From contig JAGTXX020000005.1 of the NCBI GenBank assembly GCA_019044685.2, positions 248,001-312,000 of the forward strand: a stretch of DNA of 64,000 bases. Reading direction: 5' to 3'. A model generated the notes under the pieces. That model was not told the DNA's origin, ran no database searches, and was given only the letters and a program-made list of their open reading frames with translations. Shown here piece after piece: positions 16,446 through 53,129 of the stretch. The position numbers and the translations under genes are program-made. Source of the stretch: Nannochloris sp. 'desiccata' (Eukaryota > Chlorophyta > Trebouxiophyceae > Chlorellales > Chlorellaceae). Numbering within the stretch: position 1 is the stretch's first letter; every line of letters starts with the position of its first letter.

Positions 16446-16933
16446 GGGCGACAGCAAGAGAGCGGTAGGTGGCGGTGTTTAGCAAAAACGTTGTGTACTA
16501 GCAGATAAAGGCCTTTAGTTAAAGTGCATGAGTTAATTTCTAGGACGTACAAATTGTTGTTTGTTGTACAGTGAGAATATACGGTTAAATAACCAACTCA
16601 TTTTAAGTGGGGTTGTAAAACAACTTTTACAACTTGAAGCCCAGCACACAGCACAATGCTGACGTAGGAAGAAAGCGAAAAAGGTCCTCCTCGCGACACT
16701 ACAAAACTTATTCCTAATTACTACGTAATCTAAAGCCTTATTTATGCTGTTCTAGTTTCTCCTAGGCTTAAACTACTCGCTATAAAACACATCCAAGGCT
16801 TGTTTCTGTCAATTGACAAAGCATCTTTTCCTGGTTGGGTTTTTCTTGCAATACCATACTCAGGACTATTTTCGCGCTTCTTATAGCTATTACCCTGGCT
16901 TCGCCTACTTTTCTAAACCGCCGTTTGGTAACA
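16446..16933. other. Intergenic spacer
   Basis: About 490 bases without a convincing gene. The frame upstream of the next ATG is open from a TGA at 16814 and encodes a hydrophobic stretch (about residues -25 to -10 relative to the ATG) but contains no ATG. This could be chance, or part of an upstream exon encoding a leader. Confidence 0.4.
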
Positions 16934-18538
16934 ATGCCTGGCAGAACTCGTGACGAAGGAGTTTTGCAGGCAATTAGGAGGGCTGCCATGGTGCCTCGCC
17001 CTGGTCAGACTCTCGTCCGCTCTATACTAGACACTATTCCCTCGGAAAGCAAGTTTGTCCTTATTGGAGAAGCATCGCACGGTACAGATGAATTTTATCG
17101 CCTCAGAGGGGACATTACAAGGGCCTTAATTACTGAGAGAGGTTTCAATGCAATAGCTGTGGAAGCCGACTTTCCGGATGCTTTTCGAGCCAACCTGTAT
17201 GTGCGGGGTCTAAATAACGACACTTCTCCTGAGGAAGCACTTGGAGATTTTATTAGATTCCCTACCTGGATGTGGCGCAACACAGCAGTTCGAGATTTTC
17301 TGTCATGGCTGCGCCAGCACAACGATAAGATAGCTGGAGGCGGAGTCGGTGCAGATAAAGTAGGATTTTATGGTGTTGATGTGTACAGTATGCACTCTTC
17401 TGCAGCCAGAGTGGTAGAATATCTCAATAGAGTCGATCCAGAAGCAGCAAAAAGGGTTCAGCAACGATATGAGTGCTTTGACCGCTACGGGGAAGATGCT
17501 CACCTGTACGCCAGAGCAACCGGTCTCTACGGTGCCCCTTCCTGTGCCAATGACGCCTTGTCTGCGTTATCTGAAGTTTTACGTAGTGCAGGTGCCCGTG
17601 CACAGGCTGGAGATGGAGAGATGGGCTGGGAGCAACAATTTGCTGCAGAGTGTAATGCAGCGTGTGTCTCTGGTGCGGAGGCGTACTACAGAAATATGTT
17701 TTTCGGCGAGGAATTAACCTGGAATTTGCGGGATACTCACTTTGCCGACACAGTTGCTCGAATCCAAAACCATTTGACCTCGCGCATGGTTCGTGCCGGG
17801 AGAATTGGAGGTGACAGCAAAAGTGATACTGCTTCTGCTTCTGCTGCTGCTAAAGTTGTCGTTTGGGCACATAATAGCCACCTTGGTGATGCTTCTGCAA
17901 CCGACATGGGTAAAATGAGAGGTGAAATAAATCTTGGCCAGCTTATGAGACAGCGTTATGGTGCTGCTGGTAGTAGCGATGGCCATAGTAAGGTTTTTAA
18001 TATTGGGTTTTCTTGTAATAGTGGTACAGTAGCCGCAGCTGATGAGTGGGACTCTCCGGGTCAGAAGAAGCACGTACGACCTGGGATGCCGGGGAGCTAT
18101 GAGGCGTTGTTTCATGAGGTGGGGCTTCCTGCTTTTGCTTTAAAACTCCGCGCAGAAAGCGGAGGAGGAGGAGGAGGAGGAGGAGGCTCTAAAAGGATCA
18201 AGACGAGCGATGGCGGTGAAAGAGCGGAAGAAAACAAAGAAGGAGAGGATTTCGCTGTCCCTGAAAAAGACCAAAATCAAGAAGAAAAAGAGGTTCAAGA
18301 GCAGCTTTGTGCTGCACTTGCTGGACCTTTATTAGAAAGAGCCATCGGTGTTATTTACCGGCCTCGTACTGAACGACAAAGCCACTATTTCTACGCAGAG
18401 CTGCCTAAACAGTTTGATTTGATGATTCACATAGATAAGACGCACGCTGTCAAACCTTTGGAGCCATCACATCCTTCCTGGGAAAAAGAACATCTGGCAA
18501 AAGAAGATTTACCTGAGACATATCCATTTGCCGTCTAG
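16934..18538 (+). CDS. Erythromycin-esterase-family hydrolase
   Basis: A single exon of 534 residues from the first in-frame ATG at 16934. The fold is marked by the conserved GEASHGTDEFYRLRGDI motif near residues 45-60 (active-site His and Glu of the EreA/EreB/DUF family), VEADFPDA near 75, YGVDVYSMH near 145 and VVWAHNSHLGD near 310. Bacterial Ere enzymes hydrolyse the macrolide lactone, but the family is broad and most eukaryotic members are uncharacterised, so macrolide resistance should not be assumed. Around residue 410 a run of about nine glycines from a GGA microsatellite opens a charged insertion that splits the C-terminal part and is likely a surface loop. The end of the domain (YRPRTERQSHYFYAELPKQF) is intact. 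Confidence 0.85.
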   Translation: MPGRTRDEGVLQAIRRAAMVPRPGQTLVRSILDTIPSESKFVLIGEASHGTDEFYRLRGDITRALITERGFNAIAVEADFPDAFRANLYVRGLNNDTSPEEALGDFIRFPTWMWRNTAVRDFLSWLRQHNDKIAGGGVGADKVGFYGVDVYSMHSSAARVVEYLNRVDPEAAKRVQQRYECFDRYGEDAHLYARATGLYGAPSCANDALSALSEVLRSAGARAQAGDGEMGWEQQFAAECNAACVSGAEAYYRNMFFGEELTWNLRDTHFADTVARIQNHLTSRMVRAGRIGGDSKSDTASASAAAKVVVWAHNSHLGDASATDMGKMRGEINLGQLMRQRYGAAGSSDGHSKVFNIGFSCNSGTVAAADEWDSPGQKKHVRPGMPGSYEALFHEVGLPAFALKLRAESGGGGGGGGGSKRIKTSDGGERAEENKEGEDFAVPEKDQNQEEKEVQEQLCAALAGPLLERAIGVIYRPRTERQSHYFYAELPKQFDLMIHIDKTHAVKPLEPSHPSWEKEHLAKEDLPETYPFAV

Positions 18539-20875: not shown

Positions 20876-22274
20876 ACCTTATCTAGCTCCCTATTAATGA
20901 TTACCCGCATGACCTCATTTGTACCCTGCAAACAACAATGAAAAGAGAATAGAATCAGCACTTTACTATCAAAAACAACAAAGCAAATTTTAAGGTATCC
21001 TTCTTTCGTACCTCTAAAATCGAGTGCACTCTCAGGTCTCTCAGAATCCTTTCTATTGGATATTCTTTCAAGTATCCATACCCTCCTAGCAGCTGTAAAG
21101 CATCATTTGCCACGTCAAAGCAAGCATCGGTTGCAAACCTTTTCGCCATCGCCGCCTGCAAAGTGGCAGCAGGAAATTTCGCATCCATTGCAGCAGCTGC
21201 ATGCCGTACCATCAACCTCGAAGCGTGTAAAGTCGTTGCCATATCTGCAATTTTGAATTGAATTCCTTGAAATTCACTTACTGCTTTGCCAAACTGCTTC
21301 CGGTGTTTCACATAATCTCGAGCTGTATCAAGAGAAAATTGAGCTCCGCCAAGAGAACACGCTGCAATATTGATACGTCCCCCATCTAAAGCTTGCATAG
21401 CAATCTTAAATCCTTCACCTTCCTGGCCAATACGTTGTGATTCGGGGATTTTCACGCTGTCAAACATAACCGCTGTTGTTGGTTGAGCATTCCACCCCAT
21501 TTTTTCTTCTTTTTTACCAAAACTTAGTCCTGGAGTATCTTTTTCAACTACAAATGCTGAAATGCCTTTCGATCCGGAAGTTGGATCTCCAGTACGGGCC
21601 ATAACAAGGTAGATATCACTTACCCCGCCACCGCTAATAAACGCCTTGGAGCCATCTAAAATGTAATCTTCTCCTTTCTTTTTAGCACTTGTTTTCATAC
21701 CTGCAGCGTCGCTACCAGATCCAGGTTCGGTCAAACAATAGGAAGCAAGCTTCTCCATGGTAGAAAGACAAGGAACGTATGCATCTCGCTGCTCTGGATT
21801 GCCCCACTTGTCGATAACCCCTGCCACCATGTTGTGTATACTAAGATATGCAGTCACAGGGACATCCCCATAAGATAGGGCTTCAAAAATAACAGCAGCA
21901 TCGGCACGGCCAAGTCCACTGCCGCCTACGTCTTCTGAAACGTATATGCCTCCGAAACCAAGAGCTGCTGCCTCTTGAAGAACGCCCACTGGGAAATGAT
22001 GCTCTGCATCCCACTGAGCAGATTGGGGGGCTAGTCTTTCCCGTGCAAAGTCTTCTGCAACACGTTGAAACTCAGCTTGCTCTCCACTAAGAGTAAAATC
22101 TGAAGACGAAGCTGGTGAAAAGTCATTGTTGCTGCCCATGGGATCTGGTAGGGATGCAGCAGAAAAAGTTCGAATGAACTTCTGAGTGGCTATTCCTCGA
22201 TAATCCAAAGATGCGCCCTTGGATGATTGTAGTAGAGATGAATATGCTCTTCGTAATGCCTGGTGGAGCGACAT
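20876..22274 (-). CDS. ACAD8: Isobutyryl-CoA dehydrogenase (ACAD8-type), mitochondrial
   Basis: Exons 21012-22274 and 20876-20935 (76-base intron) give 440 residues. Residues 1-45 are Arg/Ser/Ala-rich, a mitochondrial presequence. The acyl-CoA dehydrogenase domains follow: N-terminal helices ([20 protein letters not shown]), the flavin-contacting [14 protein letters not shown] near 180-195, and [14 protein letters not shown]. The C-terminal helical domain contains [20 protein letters not shown] and [18 protein letters not shown]. The catalytic Glu is in HSILE-GTNEVM, exactly at the exon junction. The sequence follows the ACAD8 pattern throughout (for example [30 protein letters not shown]). 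It is an FAD enzyme of valine catabolism in the matrix, passing electrons to ETF. A related short/branched-chain substrate cannot be excluded. Confidence 0.92.
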
Positions 22275-27817: not shown

Positions 27818-28352
27818 CCCTGACAAAGAATGCTGGGAAGCTATGATGGCTTTGGTGTAAAATTTAAGGCAATGTTATTAAATGGACGAAAGGTGGGAAA
27901 GAGTGGGTGGATTTATTTTTCAAGAAAAAGTTTGACTTCAAGTTAAATTGCCGGGCCGCTGACTTGACAGAGGAACTTGATGCCTTTAAAACGACACAGC
28001 ATTATGCGTTGAATGATTTCTTTGTAGAGATTCTGTCTGAGATAAGGTACATTAAGCAGCAGATGCACCGGCCAGCTAGCTGCCGGCCTTGATGAAAGGT
28101 TCTTTGATTTTTCGTCAGCGGGCAGGCGGTGTGCCCACCACGTGATCAATGGTAAAATGCCTTAAGCAGCCTCCCATTTTATTTTACGAAGTTCGTGTGT
28201 GCTATACGAATTCAAAAGAAGTATATGTCTGCTGTGGTTTGGACCTAATAGAGGATGCTGACTAAGGATTATTCTTTAAAAAAAGACGTCTTTGTAAAAT
28301 ACTGTATTCATTATTTATATGCCCATCAAGTATTTTGTTTTGATAAAGAAAA
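27818..28352. other. Spacer between CA1P-phosphatase-like gene and permuted tRNA
   Basis: About 530 bases without a credible gene. It contains an imperfect inverted repeat around 28068-28088 (gccagctagctgccggc) similar in character to the GCCAGCTGGC palindromes near 29272 and 29396. The left part should be the promoter of the minus-strand phosphatase. Confidence 0.4.
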
Positions 28353-28464
28353 TAGAAGTCAGATGCGCTATCCACTGCGCTACGCGGACTGCCAAATCTA
28401 TTCTGGCCTAATGGTCATTATTGTCTACCATCCACGGTGGGGTTCGAACCCACGACCCTCTGAT
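28353..28464 (-). tRNA. Circularly permuted tRNA-Arg (anticodon UCU)
   Basis: On the minus strand the 3' half comes first (28464 to 28429), then a 39-base intervening segment (28428 to 28390), then the 5' half (28389 to 28353). Joined in mature order they make 73 nt: acceptor GTCCGCG pairs with CGTGGAT over all seven positions (two G-U), D stem GCGC/GCGC with loop AGTGGATA, anticodon stem TCTGA/TCAGA with loop CTTCTAA (anticodon TCT), variable loop GGGTC, T stem GTGGG/CCCAC with loop TTCGAAC, discriminator G. The break lies between positions 37 and 38, the canonical tRNA intron site, as expected for maturation by splicing endonuclease and ligase to a circular intermediate, then RNase P and tRNase Z trimming of the intervening piece. 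CCA is not encoded. A T4 run follows the 5' half (28352-28349), a possible Pol III terminator. Confidence 0.9.
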
Positions 28465-28518
28465 TGCAACTTTGAAAAAAAGTTGAGTTCCAGGCCATCC
28501 AGATAGCTAACCTTGAAA

Positions 28519-28543: not shown

Positions 28544-28597
28544 GGATGGTCCTGGTGATGACTTTAAACTCCCTGGTTCGAGTCGGTTCTCCGTGGA

Positions 28598-28705
28598 GGC
28601 GTAGGGGCTTTTCATCGGTTCGCCCGGTTTTACCCCTCAGATCTCCAGCCGGCTCGCATCGAAAAGCAGCCTCAATATACTTGCTGCGGAAGCGAGGGAT
28701 TGTGG
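28598..28705 (+). repeat. Retroposon-like repeat, copy A
   Basis: A segment starting GGCGTAGGGGCTTTTCATCG and continuing with GGTTCGCCCGGTTTTACC recurs about 345 bases downstream (28943-29060). The first ~37 bases are nearly identical and the following ~70 bases remain about 70% similar (shared ATCGAA, AGCC-AATA, ATTGTGG blocks). A box-B-like GGTTCGAGTC lies at 28575-28584, just upstream. About 220 bases downstream it runs into a CT-rich tract and then AACTAAACTAAAC at 28918-28930, the kind of short tandem tail seen on SINEs and some LINEs. Identity as a SINE is inference. Confidence 0.5.
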
Positions 28706-28942
28706 GGTGGGTTTCCCAATGTTCAACTCTGGCCACAAGGTCCCTGAGGCTGAGTCTACAGTACTGCTCCCCTCTTGTGATATGGAGAGGTGATTATGGT
28801 CTTGTCCTCTTCCTTCATCTGTTTCCTTCTATATATGCATTTCTCTGTCATTTGTACTAGAGAGACTCGATCATTTCGATGAGGTCACCGGTGAGGTGGC
28901 TCGGGTTACATGTAACAACTAAACTAAACGATTACCCTAGCA

Positions 28943-29060
28943 GGCGTGGGGTTTTTCATCGGTTCGCCCGGTTTTACCTCGTAGATTTGCTGTCGGACTC
29001 TATCGAATTATAGCCGAAATACTAGCTATTGGCGAGGTCTACGGTCTGAGATTGTGGCTC
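28943..29060 (+). repeat. Retroposon-like repeat, copy B
   Basis: Second copy of the repeat at 28598-28705: GGCGTGGGGTTTTTCATCGG followed by the same TTCGCCCGGTTTTACC. Downstream there is a CAGTAAAGTAAAGTAAG tandem tail at 29424-29440, parallel to the AACTAAACTAAAC tail after copy A. Two 12-base perfect palindromes of related sequence lie between the core and that tail: AGCCAGCTGGCT at 29269-29280 and CGCCAGCTGGCG at 29394-29405. Confidence 0.5.
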
Positions 29061-29477
29061 TCTGGTGGGAGTTTTCTTGACCATGTGGCAGTTATTGCGT
29101 CTCACAGGCACAAGAAAATTAGGTTGTTCTTGGATTTGTAAGGCCTCTCCAAGTTACAAGGGGGGTTCAGGCCTCCGACCCCCGGGCCCGTGCTTTGCAT
29201 TCCGTTTCTGTTCTTCTTGTCTGTTTCTTGTCCTTGATAATTAATTGTCTTGAAGTACTCCGGACGCAGCCAGCTGGCTGTGAATGGGCAAAATTTCTTT
29301 TAGAAAGCCTTGGTTTCGTGTATGTATGTCATTTATCTTGCATTTGTGTTCTGCAGCACCAAGCTGAGGACTTATAAGAGTTTTATAGACGCCGCCAGCT
29401 GGCGGTGCATGGCTATAACCCACAGTAAAGTAAAGTAAGTTGGGTACACCTTTTGCAAAAAGTGTGTTTTTGGTATA

Positions 29478-50967: not shown

Positions 50968-52849
50968 ATGGACGGGAAGCAAGAGATGGAAAAAGGTGTG
51001 CAGATGGCTCGACATTGCCACGCTTGCATTTTGCTGATTATTGTTGACAAAAGTTGTTCAAAAGATTCAATTTCAAAATAACAATTCGCAATTTTTCTTA
51101 CCCTTCGCAGAAACTTTAACAGCTCCCGTTCCCATCACGAGCCCCATCAAGGCTCTACTACATGCGAAGATCGCTGGAGCTCAGGTAGCTACAGACTCTC
51201 CTCTGTCGCCGCCTTCAGGCGATGAGGATGTACTTGCCGGAGCTGAGCGCCTTGTCCCTGACCCAGACTCCCCAACAAGCCGTCTGTTACTCCGCGCCGC
51301 CCGTCGCTCCTTACGTGAAGCTGAAGAATTTTCCTCTACCCCGGAACGTCGTTTTTCCTTCTTAAATGATATCGCTCGAAACCCAAAGCTTGCTGCAGCC
51401 GCTCGTCAGGAACTGGAAGCAGCGTCTGGAACCCCTTCCCCTATAGCAGCAGCAGGTGGCGGTGGAAACACCGGTAAAACTCCTGGATCAGGTGGTAATG
51501 GTACTCAATCAAACTTAGGCCATTCAAATGCTTATAGTAATGCATCTGGCGTAACTTACTTTCAACATGCCTCGGATGTCGAGCGACAGTCCGTCTTAAT
51601 AGCTCAGCTCGATAAAGATGCAGAACAAGAATCAAAAATCAATCAAGGCATGGCGAGTGTAATGCTGGGGAGGTTACAAAGCGGTAAAAATGCAGCTGAA
51701 CGGGTTCTATCCGTACTACAAGCCTTCGCTTCGGCGGAGGCCGGGTATGCTCGAGCAATGGACGCATTATCTGGAGTAGTTCTTCCTGGTGAGGCTGATG
51801 GACCTACGCTACGCGCAGCAATGGTTGAATTCTCTGCTCTCCCAGCAGCATTATGTGGCCTTCATTCAGGCATCGCAGAAGCTCTTGTTCCCGAAATTAA
51901 AAATGTCCAGCGGGTCGTTGGAGATTTACGAATAGCGTGTAATGAAATAGGCCTAGGGACAAGCTCAGCGCAAAAGAGTGTCGATGCAGCACGAAGGGGT
52001 TTAAAATTAGCGTTGAATGCACACAGAGATGCGTGCAAAGCCTTTGATGCAGCGCTAGTCGAGAGGCAAAGAGTAGGATCTCGGTCTCGTAGTGTTGAGT
52101 CAGATCCCTGGGTCGCAGAAGGACGCTTAGTAGAGAAACAGGCTGCTCTACAAGAAGCGCAAACACATCAGCGTATGTACCTAGGAGGAGCTTTTCGTCG
52201 TGCAGGAGAGCTGGAACGGAATCGAATTGATGTTGCGTGTAGCGCTTTAGCGGCTCTATCAGAGCTCCCACGAACAGCGTGTATGCCTGAGATAACTGCC
52301 GCTGGGGAACGATTATCAGGTGCATTAGATGCAGTTGATGCTGAAGCTGATTTAGATGCGTTTAGCGCTGTCGCTGGGAATAGTATACGAAATGGTGATG
52401 CCCTGTCTTCTCGTCAAGCGCAGTTGGTCGAGGATCTGTGGATGGAATTGACCTCTAGTGCTGAAATAGTCCGCCAGGGTGAAGTAGAAAGGTACGATGC
52501 GGGAAAAGATGCATGGATTCGAGGCTATGCTGTAGCAACGCGAGCAGGATTCCTACACTGGTTCTCTGCTGCCGCTGTTAGTGACGGGTGTCACGGTGAT
52601 ACTGCAGAGGCAGCCATCGGTGCTTGGGGTTTATGCGGTGGTCCCAGAATATCATTAAACCTTGCACGGTGTGAATTTGAGCAAGGAGAAGCTCCTGCAT
52701 GGAGGTTGATTGAAGGAAGTAGCGGCGGATTGAATGGGTGGCTGGGTGTGAATAGGCAGTCGTTGGCGTTAAAAACTCATGATGTAGATGGGTGTATGGA
52801 TTGGGCAGCTGATTTACGTGAATTAATAGCATTATGTAGTAGTAAATAA
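50968..52849 (+). CDS. BAR-like coiled-coil protein with C-terminal PH-like domain
   Basis: Exons 50968-50995 and 51111-52849 (115-base intron with an unusual GTGTGC donor) give 588 residues. After a disordered Pro/Ser/Gly-rich N-terminus (residues 1-160), residues ~175-430 form a long, mostly helical region (GMASVMLGRLQSGKNAAERV, ALCGLHSGIAEALVPEIKNV, KLALNAHRDACKAFDAALVE) laid out like a BAR/F-BAR membrane-curving domain. Residues ~470-585 look like a PH domain (VERYDAGKDAWIRGYAVATR, WLGVNRQSLALKTHDVDGCM-DWAADLRELI), i.e. a strand-rich module ending in a long helix. BAR+PH proteins bind phosphoinositide membranes in endocytosis or trafficking. Assignment rests on pattern, not on signature motifs. 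The first exon is short, so the true start is less certain. Confidence 0.65.
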
Positions 52850-53129
52850 ATAGAGTACTGTTAATATCGTAGCTATGGTATAAAGATAATGTTCTGATGC
52901 GAACGAAACGATCGAAAATCGAGTATAAATGGATATCTATCCTACAACGATGAAAGAAAAAGATTGACCTTTAATTTTATTTATACATATTAATAATGCT
53001 TATAATTAGATATAGATATGAACTCCTCATTCGTTAATACTTACTAGAGACAGTTACATTGAGTCCTTTAAGATTTCTGGTAGATTATAAGAGAAATATC
53101 ATCATCTACTTCCTTCAATTCTTTTTCTC

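Follow-up and report, generated by a model that had tools for sequence, protein, structure and literature searches.

A circularly permuted tRNA-Arg(UCU) gene lies on the minus strand of contig C5 of Nannochloris sp. 'desiccata'. The 3' half of the tRNA precedes the 5' half and the break falls between positions 37 and 38, which makes it a type II permuted gene, a kind that is already known. Judged from sequence, this is very probably a working nuclear gene of a Nannochloris-type green alga, and probably the only copy. Since its halves are swapped, the RNA for the Arg tRNA that reads AGA would probably have to be circularized and then cut again in order to work. Taken by itself, this gene is a textbook example of an oddity already described; the new and surprising part is the scale on which the arrangement recurs in the genome, where permuted genes outnumber conventional ones.

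MATERIALS AND METHODS

The window is the whole stretch of DNA that was analysed (64 kb, C5:248001-312000); the assembly comprises 21.55 Mb in 18 contigs. For the window, a loose permuted-cloverleaf scanner was used, the only criteria of which are stem pairs, TTCRA, U8, and U33. For the genome survey, a covariance model of a swapped tRNA broken at 37/38, here called R1, was trained on the Arg(UCU) gene together with six conventional tRNAs of this genome that had been permuted in silico. R1 was searched on the window and on 239 loci fetched around B-box-like 11-mers, most of which extend only 300 bases on either side of the B box. All places were fetched for GGTTCRANYCC (141), TGTTCGANYCA (38), CGTTCGANYCG (10), and GGATCGAAACC (5). 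For AGTTCRANYCT, 100 of 122 places were listed, and among these all AGTTCGA and 8 AGTTCAA places were fetched; for SGTTCGANNCS, 100 of 204 places were listed and 8 further ones were fetched.

The permuted count consists of full-length R1 matches of at least 31 bits after the removal of overlaps and of L071 (see below). Matches below 31 bits were left out; at conventional genes, these are half-matches. The conventional count was obtained with ARAGORN on the same loci, together with the Rfam set; on the whole genome, the Rfam tRNA model gave at least nine matches (63 of 825 candidates scored).

RESULTS

Layout of the tRNA-Arg(UCU) locus

Read directly along the minus strand, the sequence runs from a T7 run through 10 bases, the tRNA 3' half, a 39-nt spacer, and the tRNA 5' half to TTTT, with the following parts:

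28475..28481, minus strand: T7 run just upstream of the putative leader (sequence)
28465..28474, minus strand: putative leader; its base -3 is a G (28467) that by sequence could pair with C32 (bases; constrained fold)
28429..28464, minus strand: tRNA-Arg(UCU) 3' half, positions 38-73, 36 nt, first in the gene (sequence; ARAGORN on the rejoined halves; match to R1, the training of which included it)
28440..28450 (C5:276440-276450), minus strand: B box GGTTCGAACCC in the T arm (pattern match)
28390..28428, minus strand: intervening spacer, 39 nt, without TTTT, connecting the acceptor ends; its removal by RNase P and RNase Z is expected (sequence)
28353..28389, minus strand: tRNA-Arg(UCU) 5' half, positions 1-37, 37 nt, with the anticodon TCT, second in the gene (sequence; ARAGORN; loose permuted scanner)
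28372..28382, minus strand: A-box-like element TAGCGCAGTGG in the D arm (sequence reading)
28349..28352, minus strand: TTTT immediately 3' of position 37, a candidate Pol III terminator (sequence)

An earlier note on this DNA, made from the sequence alone, had described two swapped halves (28464-28429 and 28389-28353) with 39 bases between them on the minus strand and a full 73-nt cloverleaf once they were rejoined. Direct reading bears out the former and ARAGORN the latter: the rejoined halves are 73 nt long and are called as tRNA-Arg(tct), with all 21 stem pairs present both in ARAGORN and in the permuted scanner (acceptor, 7/7, including two G-U pairs; D, 4/4; anticodon, 5/5; T, 5/5) and with a standard loop. 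The spacer length is within the range of 1 to 74 bp given for known permuted genes in Table 1 of Soma 2014 (PMC3978253).

The exact break is uncertain by one base because an A stands both at position 37 and at leader position -1. The possible C32/G-3 pair favors a break at 37/38, and the placement made in the earlier note is upheld with this one-base ambiguity. The conserved A-box and B-box bases are present. By the A-box consensus, TAGCGCAGTGG is A-box-like, and with this element downstream of the B box, the order of the internal promoter is inverted. Given the T7 run, transcription must start downstream of it, or else the polymerase reads through it. Beyond this locus, the window holds an erythromycin-esterase-type protein (16835-18538; PF05139, E value of 8.4e-110) in what is an algal nuclear genome, and a Cdc20 protein with its best named matches in Picochlorum and Chlorella. 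A further protein of the window (20955-22274) shows 100% identity over 96% of its length to Ndes2526A_g02159 of Nannochloris sp. 'desiccata', in keeping with a genome of this alga or of a nearly identical strain.

Chance expectation and copy number

Neither ARAGORN nor Rfam at gathering thresholds reported a tRNA in the 64-kb window. This is expected for a gene with swapped halves and agrees with the earlier claim that standard scanners miss permuted tRNAs. The loose permuted scanner matched only the tRNA-Arg(UCU) locus in the window. On both strands of 100 windows of first-order Markov sequence (6.4 Mb in total), the same scanner gave 13 matches with at least 19 pairs, one of them with all 21. 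At the level of 21 pairs, this amounts to a chance expectation of about 0.01 per window, a figure that does not yet demand the conserved A-box and B-box bases. It is true that a scanner this loose yields one full-pair match per 6.4 Mb of Markov sequence, as a chance origin of the locus would call for. However, the conserved A-box and B-box bases are found here in addition, the arrangement recurs at 31 loci, where the anticodons are plausible (see below), and a misassembly, the other artificial source of swapped halves, would not preserve the splice-site signature described below. We give chance or misassembly next to no credence.

A search of the rejoined 73 nt against the 21.55-Mb assembly with E values up to 10 returned nothing beyond the two halves at the locus. 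Each half has a single match in the assembly, the two being 39 nt apart in swapped order, and the 161-nt region matches only itself. For the earlier note, an identical tRNA-Arg(UCU) gene in conventional order at some other place would have spoken against its reading; this same search turned up none in the assembly.

Permuted and conventional tRNA genes in the genome

The tRNA-Arg(UCU) gene, which was part of the R1 training, scores 72.8 bits with this model. In the 239 loci, a score of 31 bits or more was reached by at least 30 other permuted genes, none of which had been used in training. The total is at least 31 permuted genes with 29 anticodons, all breaking at 37/38, the only break that R1 looks for, and spacers range from 5 to 73 nt across the 29 anticodon species. 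These are Arg TCT, TCG, CCT, CCG, and ACG; Ala AGC, TGC, and CGC; Gly GCC and TCC; Thr AGT, TGT, and CGT; Ile AAT and TAT; Leu AAG, CAA, and TAA; Ser GCT and AGA; Asn GTT; Cys GCA; Glu CTC; Lys CTT; Phe GAA; Trp CCA (three copies); Tyr GTA; Val CAC; and Met CAT, the last being elongator-like by eye. The three Trp genes lie in L062 (C8:551264-552880) and L061; two of them face in opposite directions about 1 kb apart near the end of C8.

Conventional genes were found for nine anticodons: initiator-like Met, Val TAC, Gln CTG, His GTG, Pro TGG, Pro AGG, Ser TGA, Ser CGA, and Asp GTC. Six of these species (His, both Pro, both Ser, and Asp) have introns of 21 to 50 nt at 37/38. The Ser CGA gene is labeled Pro(cgg) by ARAGORN and was assigned by reading the sequence. 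R1 gave at most 25.5 bits on conventional genes and 26.3 bits on L040.

In the GGTTCRANYCC list, which was examined completely, there are 21 permuted versus 6 conventional anticodon species (His, Pro TGG, Ser TGA, Ser CGA, Asp, and initiator-like Met). No conventional gene in this list shares its B box with a permuted one, with the reservation that a long intron could displace a 5' half from the fetched stretch; the B box of the sole conventional Val gene lies outside the list. Among the genes counted, all those for Arg, Ala, Gly, Thr, Ile, Leu, Cys, Phe, Trp, Tyr, Asn, Lys, and Glu are permuted. Both counts are lower bounds, since R1 is blind to other breaks and some isoacceptors were found in neither form among the surveyed loci, e.g., Lys TTT, Glu TTC, Gln TTG, Gly CCC, Val AAC, and Leu CAG or TAG. 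It is likely that most nuclear tRNA genes in this alga are built in circularly permuted form, which accounts for about three-quarters of the tRNA species found (29 of 38), with no conventional copies of these found, and that nearly all translation would run through circular pre-tRNAs.

Several candidates were set aside. An 81-nt match in L071 (287-367; R1, 36.1 bits) has a Leu-like body but no sensible anticodon and no T-run in the first 60 nt; it may be a pseudogene or have its break located elsewhere. According to ARAGORN, L040 (1328-1522) is Ile(aat) with a 122-nt intron; we read it as a Pro-like conventional gene without a clear U33, and it is absent from the Rfam matches up to an E value of 0.01. 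A Thr(tgt) with a 107-nt intron, called by ARAGORN in L062, shares sequence with the 3' half of a permuted Trp gene; it was taken as a probable artifact. Two identical Ser(GCT) genes on two contigs (L005 1500-1587 and L006 1500-1587) look organelle-like by eye and were left out of the conventional count; they are possible organelle DNA insertions.

The survey also bears on whether the Arg(UCU) halves could belong to two adjacent ordinary intron-containing genes, with the missing halves beyond long introns, or be joined in trans. Such a reading would account for a break at the usual eukaryotic intron site, 37/38, which is where the six conventional species just mentioned have their introns. It is countered by the fact that each half is single in the assembly and only 39 nt from the other, and by the recurrence of the swapped order in 31 genes with such short spacers. 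Furthermore, a conventional intron-containing gene has its 5' half before its 3' half on one strand, an order not found at the tRNA-Arg(UCU) locus. We consider this reading extremely unlikely and continue with the permuted gene.

Splice-site signatures and folding

In yeast-type splicing, the anticodon-intron pair is formed by position 32 and the third-last base of the intron. If the tRNA-splicing endonuclease is what cuts off leader and trailer, the end of the leader should resemble the end of a tRNA intron. Across the permuted set, a pair between position 32 and leader base -3 is possible in 21 of 29 species, compared with 15.2 +/- 1.4 when leaders are shuffled (P = 0.0001), and fails in the other 8. 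The seven other leader positions between -8 and -1 showed no pairing effect with position 32 in the 29 species. C32 is matched by a G at -3 in 12 of 19 cases and T32 by an A in 8 of 9; the base at -2 is a pyrimidine in 26 of 29. All six conventional introns examined likewise permit the 32/-3 pair, one as G-U. Leaders also pair better with their own trailers than with those of other genes (-3.40 versus -2.61 +/- 0.33 kcal/mol when mixed; P = 0.010).

A constrained fold of the tRNA-Arg(UCU) gene gives a 5-bp leader-trailer helix (AAAGU/A37-UUUU) in which the C32/G-3 pair is not formed. Constrained folds were made for seven genes, and in three of them (Arg TCG, Glu, and Ala AGC) the leader-trailer helix is absent. 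With C32 unpaired in the former and no helix in the latter, a strict bulge-helix-bulge is weak. An unconstrained fold of the 112-nt circle gave no cloverleaf, and a simple minimum-energy fold of the rejoined tRNA shifted the anticodon stem.

Terminator and promoter signatures

TTTT occurs within 20 nt past the 5' half in 27 of 29 permuted species, against a background of 23%, and was found in none of the 29 spacers (5.3 expected) and none of the 29 exon sets. At the tRNA-Arg(UCU) gene it stands directly after the 5' half and is missing from the spacer; in the Ile(AAT) gene, the leader contains TTTT immediately before the 3' half. With TTTT after the 5' half and none in spacers or exons, each permuted gene looks like one Pol III unit that extends from the leader to the T-run. 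TATA motifs upstream of the permuted genes (-60 to -15) were not enriched (6 of 29 versus 8.1 expected) and were not counted as defining. The genome encodes a protein (L243) with GTF3C1 winged-helix and B-block TFIIIC domains, which also matches DUF7599 and DUF7646. As the B-block model alone also matches 4 of 14 prokaryotic control genomes, the identification of this protein as TFIIIC leans on the GTF3C1 domain.

These set-wide signatures matter for the question of function. In a proposed origin of permuted genes (PMC3978253), two tandem intron-containing copies lose their outer halves, so the swapped arrangement alone is no proof of function, and the locus could be the unexpressed, dead remainder of such a tandem pair. 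Against this, all 21 pairs are intact, the assembly showed no second Arg(UCU) gene with this sequence that could take over, each half matching once, and the splice-site and terminator signatures are kept across the 29-gene set. A dead relic is therefore very unlikely. Together with the 30 further genes, the signatures indicate that permuted genes are a working gene type here rather than a curiosity, and they, along with the failure to find a conventional copy, support the original reading of the locus as a circularly permuted tRNA-Arg(UCU) gene.

Dispersed repeats and motifs near tRNA genes

Two pieces of a dispersed repeat, family B, lie upstream of the tRNA-Arg(UCU) gene:

28549..28634, minus strand: end piece of family B (blastn among loci and window)
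28930..29287, minus strand: second, longer piece of family B (blastn among loci and window)

Family B ends about 84 to 100 nt upstream of the permuted Arg(UCU), Cys, Arg(CCG), and Phe genes. It is also present in L048, L067, and L083, three loci without a recognized tRNA, as well as in the His locus, at a distance of about 760 nt from the His gene. The repeat contains a B-box-like word (window 28575-28585, plus strand), and its presence in these four loci is thus partly an effect of how loci were selected.

A second repeat, family A, has its 3' end about 80 to 155 nt upstream of 6 of the 29 permuted species (Arg CCT, Lys, Ile AAT, Ser GCT, Ile TAT, and Leu AAG) and likewise upstream of the conventional Asp gene, always in one orientation (L072, L014, L094, L059, L041, L066, and L010). 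It was absent from all 192 loci that lack a tRNA. In L014, two copies are about 1.14 kb apart, each followed by GACACTC. Some elements of yeast and Dictyostelium insert upstream of tRNA genes. Family A looks like a mobile element targeting tRNA genes. The idea that permutation protects tRNA genes from mobile elements is among those discussed in PMC3978253. If the repeats are mobile elements, permuted genes are still targets, and the upstream repeats seen here speak against such protection; their positions would then point to Pol III factors located upstream of the 3' half. A further repeat, family C, is shared by the upstream regions of the permuted Gly(GCC) and Ala(AGC) genes (L148 and L147); its 154 bases are identical in both and end 124 and 48 nt before the genes, respectively.

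The strongest upstream motifs found de novo were rejected, as they are largely ends of dispersed repeats. A motif like tcCAaTccGACACCATTT occurs about 60 to 110 nt downstream of several permuted genes (e.g., in L072, L022, L068, and L214), with an EM score of 104 compared with 61 to 74 in six shuffled sets, and GACACCA is found downstream in 4 of 29 permuted species (0.4 expected). It may be the end of an element or part of a promoter; being absent at the tRNA-Arg(UCU) gene, it was excluded from the explanation of this gene. On contig C8, the words GGTTCGAACCG recur at a spacing of 151 bases in short series (about 52793-53105 and 128680-129398), probably a tandem satellite with a B-box-like word.

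DISCUSSION

For the tRNA-Arg(UCU) gene, we infer transcription, a circular intermediate, the enzymes that act on it, and charging of the product. Pol III would produce one short RNA consisting of leader, 3' half, 39-nt spacer, 5' half, and U-tail, and this precursor would fold into a cloverleaf whose anticodon loop is open. At 37/38, the tRNA-splicing endonuclease would then remove leader and trailer, treating them like the two ends of an intron, and a ligase would seal position 37 to position 38 to give a 112-nt circle. From this circle, RNase P and RNase Z would excise the spacer, and CCA would be added. Circular intermediates of permuted tRNAs have been reported in red and green algae, as summarized in PMC3978253, and the proposed ligation and spacer removal by RNase P and RNase Z follow this work by analogy.

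In this genome, the permuted form looks normal and appears to be the sole source of many tRNAs. If this is true, nearly all translation would rely on circular pre-tRNAs in a cell that has retained a TFIIIC B-block homologue and in which TATA is not enriched upstream of permuted genes. Several questions can now be tested in an alga from a culture collection: why permuted genes are kept, how many circles a cell tolerates, how Pol III initiates when the A and B boxes stand in inverted order, and whether permutation offers protection from mobile elements.

The closest relatives in architecture within the genome itself are the conventional intron-containing genes, which share the 37/38 splice position and the possible 32/-3 pair (6/6) but have their halves in normal order. 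Beyond this genome, the tables of Soma 2014 (PMC3978253) give 34 permuted tRNA genes from seven species, with green-algal breaks being of type II as a rule; the single genome described here contains at least 31. A search of mostly open-access literature found, among the papers listed, no report of permuted Nannochloris tRNAs. In the Amorphochlora nucleomorph, two permuted Ser genes were described in 2015 (PMC4494063).

The permuted tRNA-Arg(TCT) of Ostreococcus tauri, as listed in PMC3978253, is the nearest counterpart of our gene: it has the same anticodon and the same type II break at 37/38, and it is likewise an intronless nuclear gene of a green alga, although its spacer is 11 bp long rather than 39. 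Only 6 permuted genes are tabulated there for O. tauri, in contrast to the 31 or more in Nannochloris. The red alga Cyanidioschyzon merolae, in the account given by the same review (PMC3978253), shares the swapped halves, the downstream T-run, and the terminator-free spacer, the latter being 7 to 74 bp long. It differs in several respects. In C. merolae, 11 of 43 genes are permuted and the breaks fall at four places in the cloverleaf, whereas all 29 species here break at 37/38, the sole break R1 seeks; its permuted genes have an upstream TATA, for which there is no enrichment here; and homologues of TFC1 and TFC3 are reported there as not identified, while a TFIIIC B-block homologue is present here. 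Permuted tRNA genes are also reported for Auxenochlorella UTEX 250-A, which likewise belongs to the Trebouxiophyceae. In that work (Plant Cell 2025, PMC12636532; preprint, PMC12633428), the tRNAscan-SE set was incomplete and permuted genes were then detected, their number and anticodons being given in a supplementary figure. In related algae, tRNA annotations that depend on standard scanners may fall far short of being complete.
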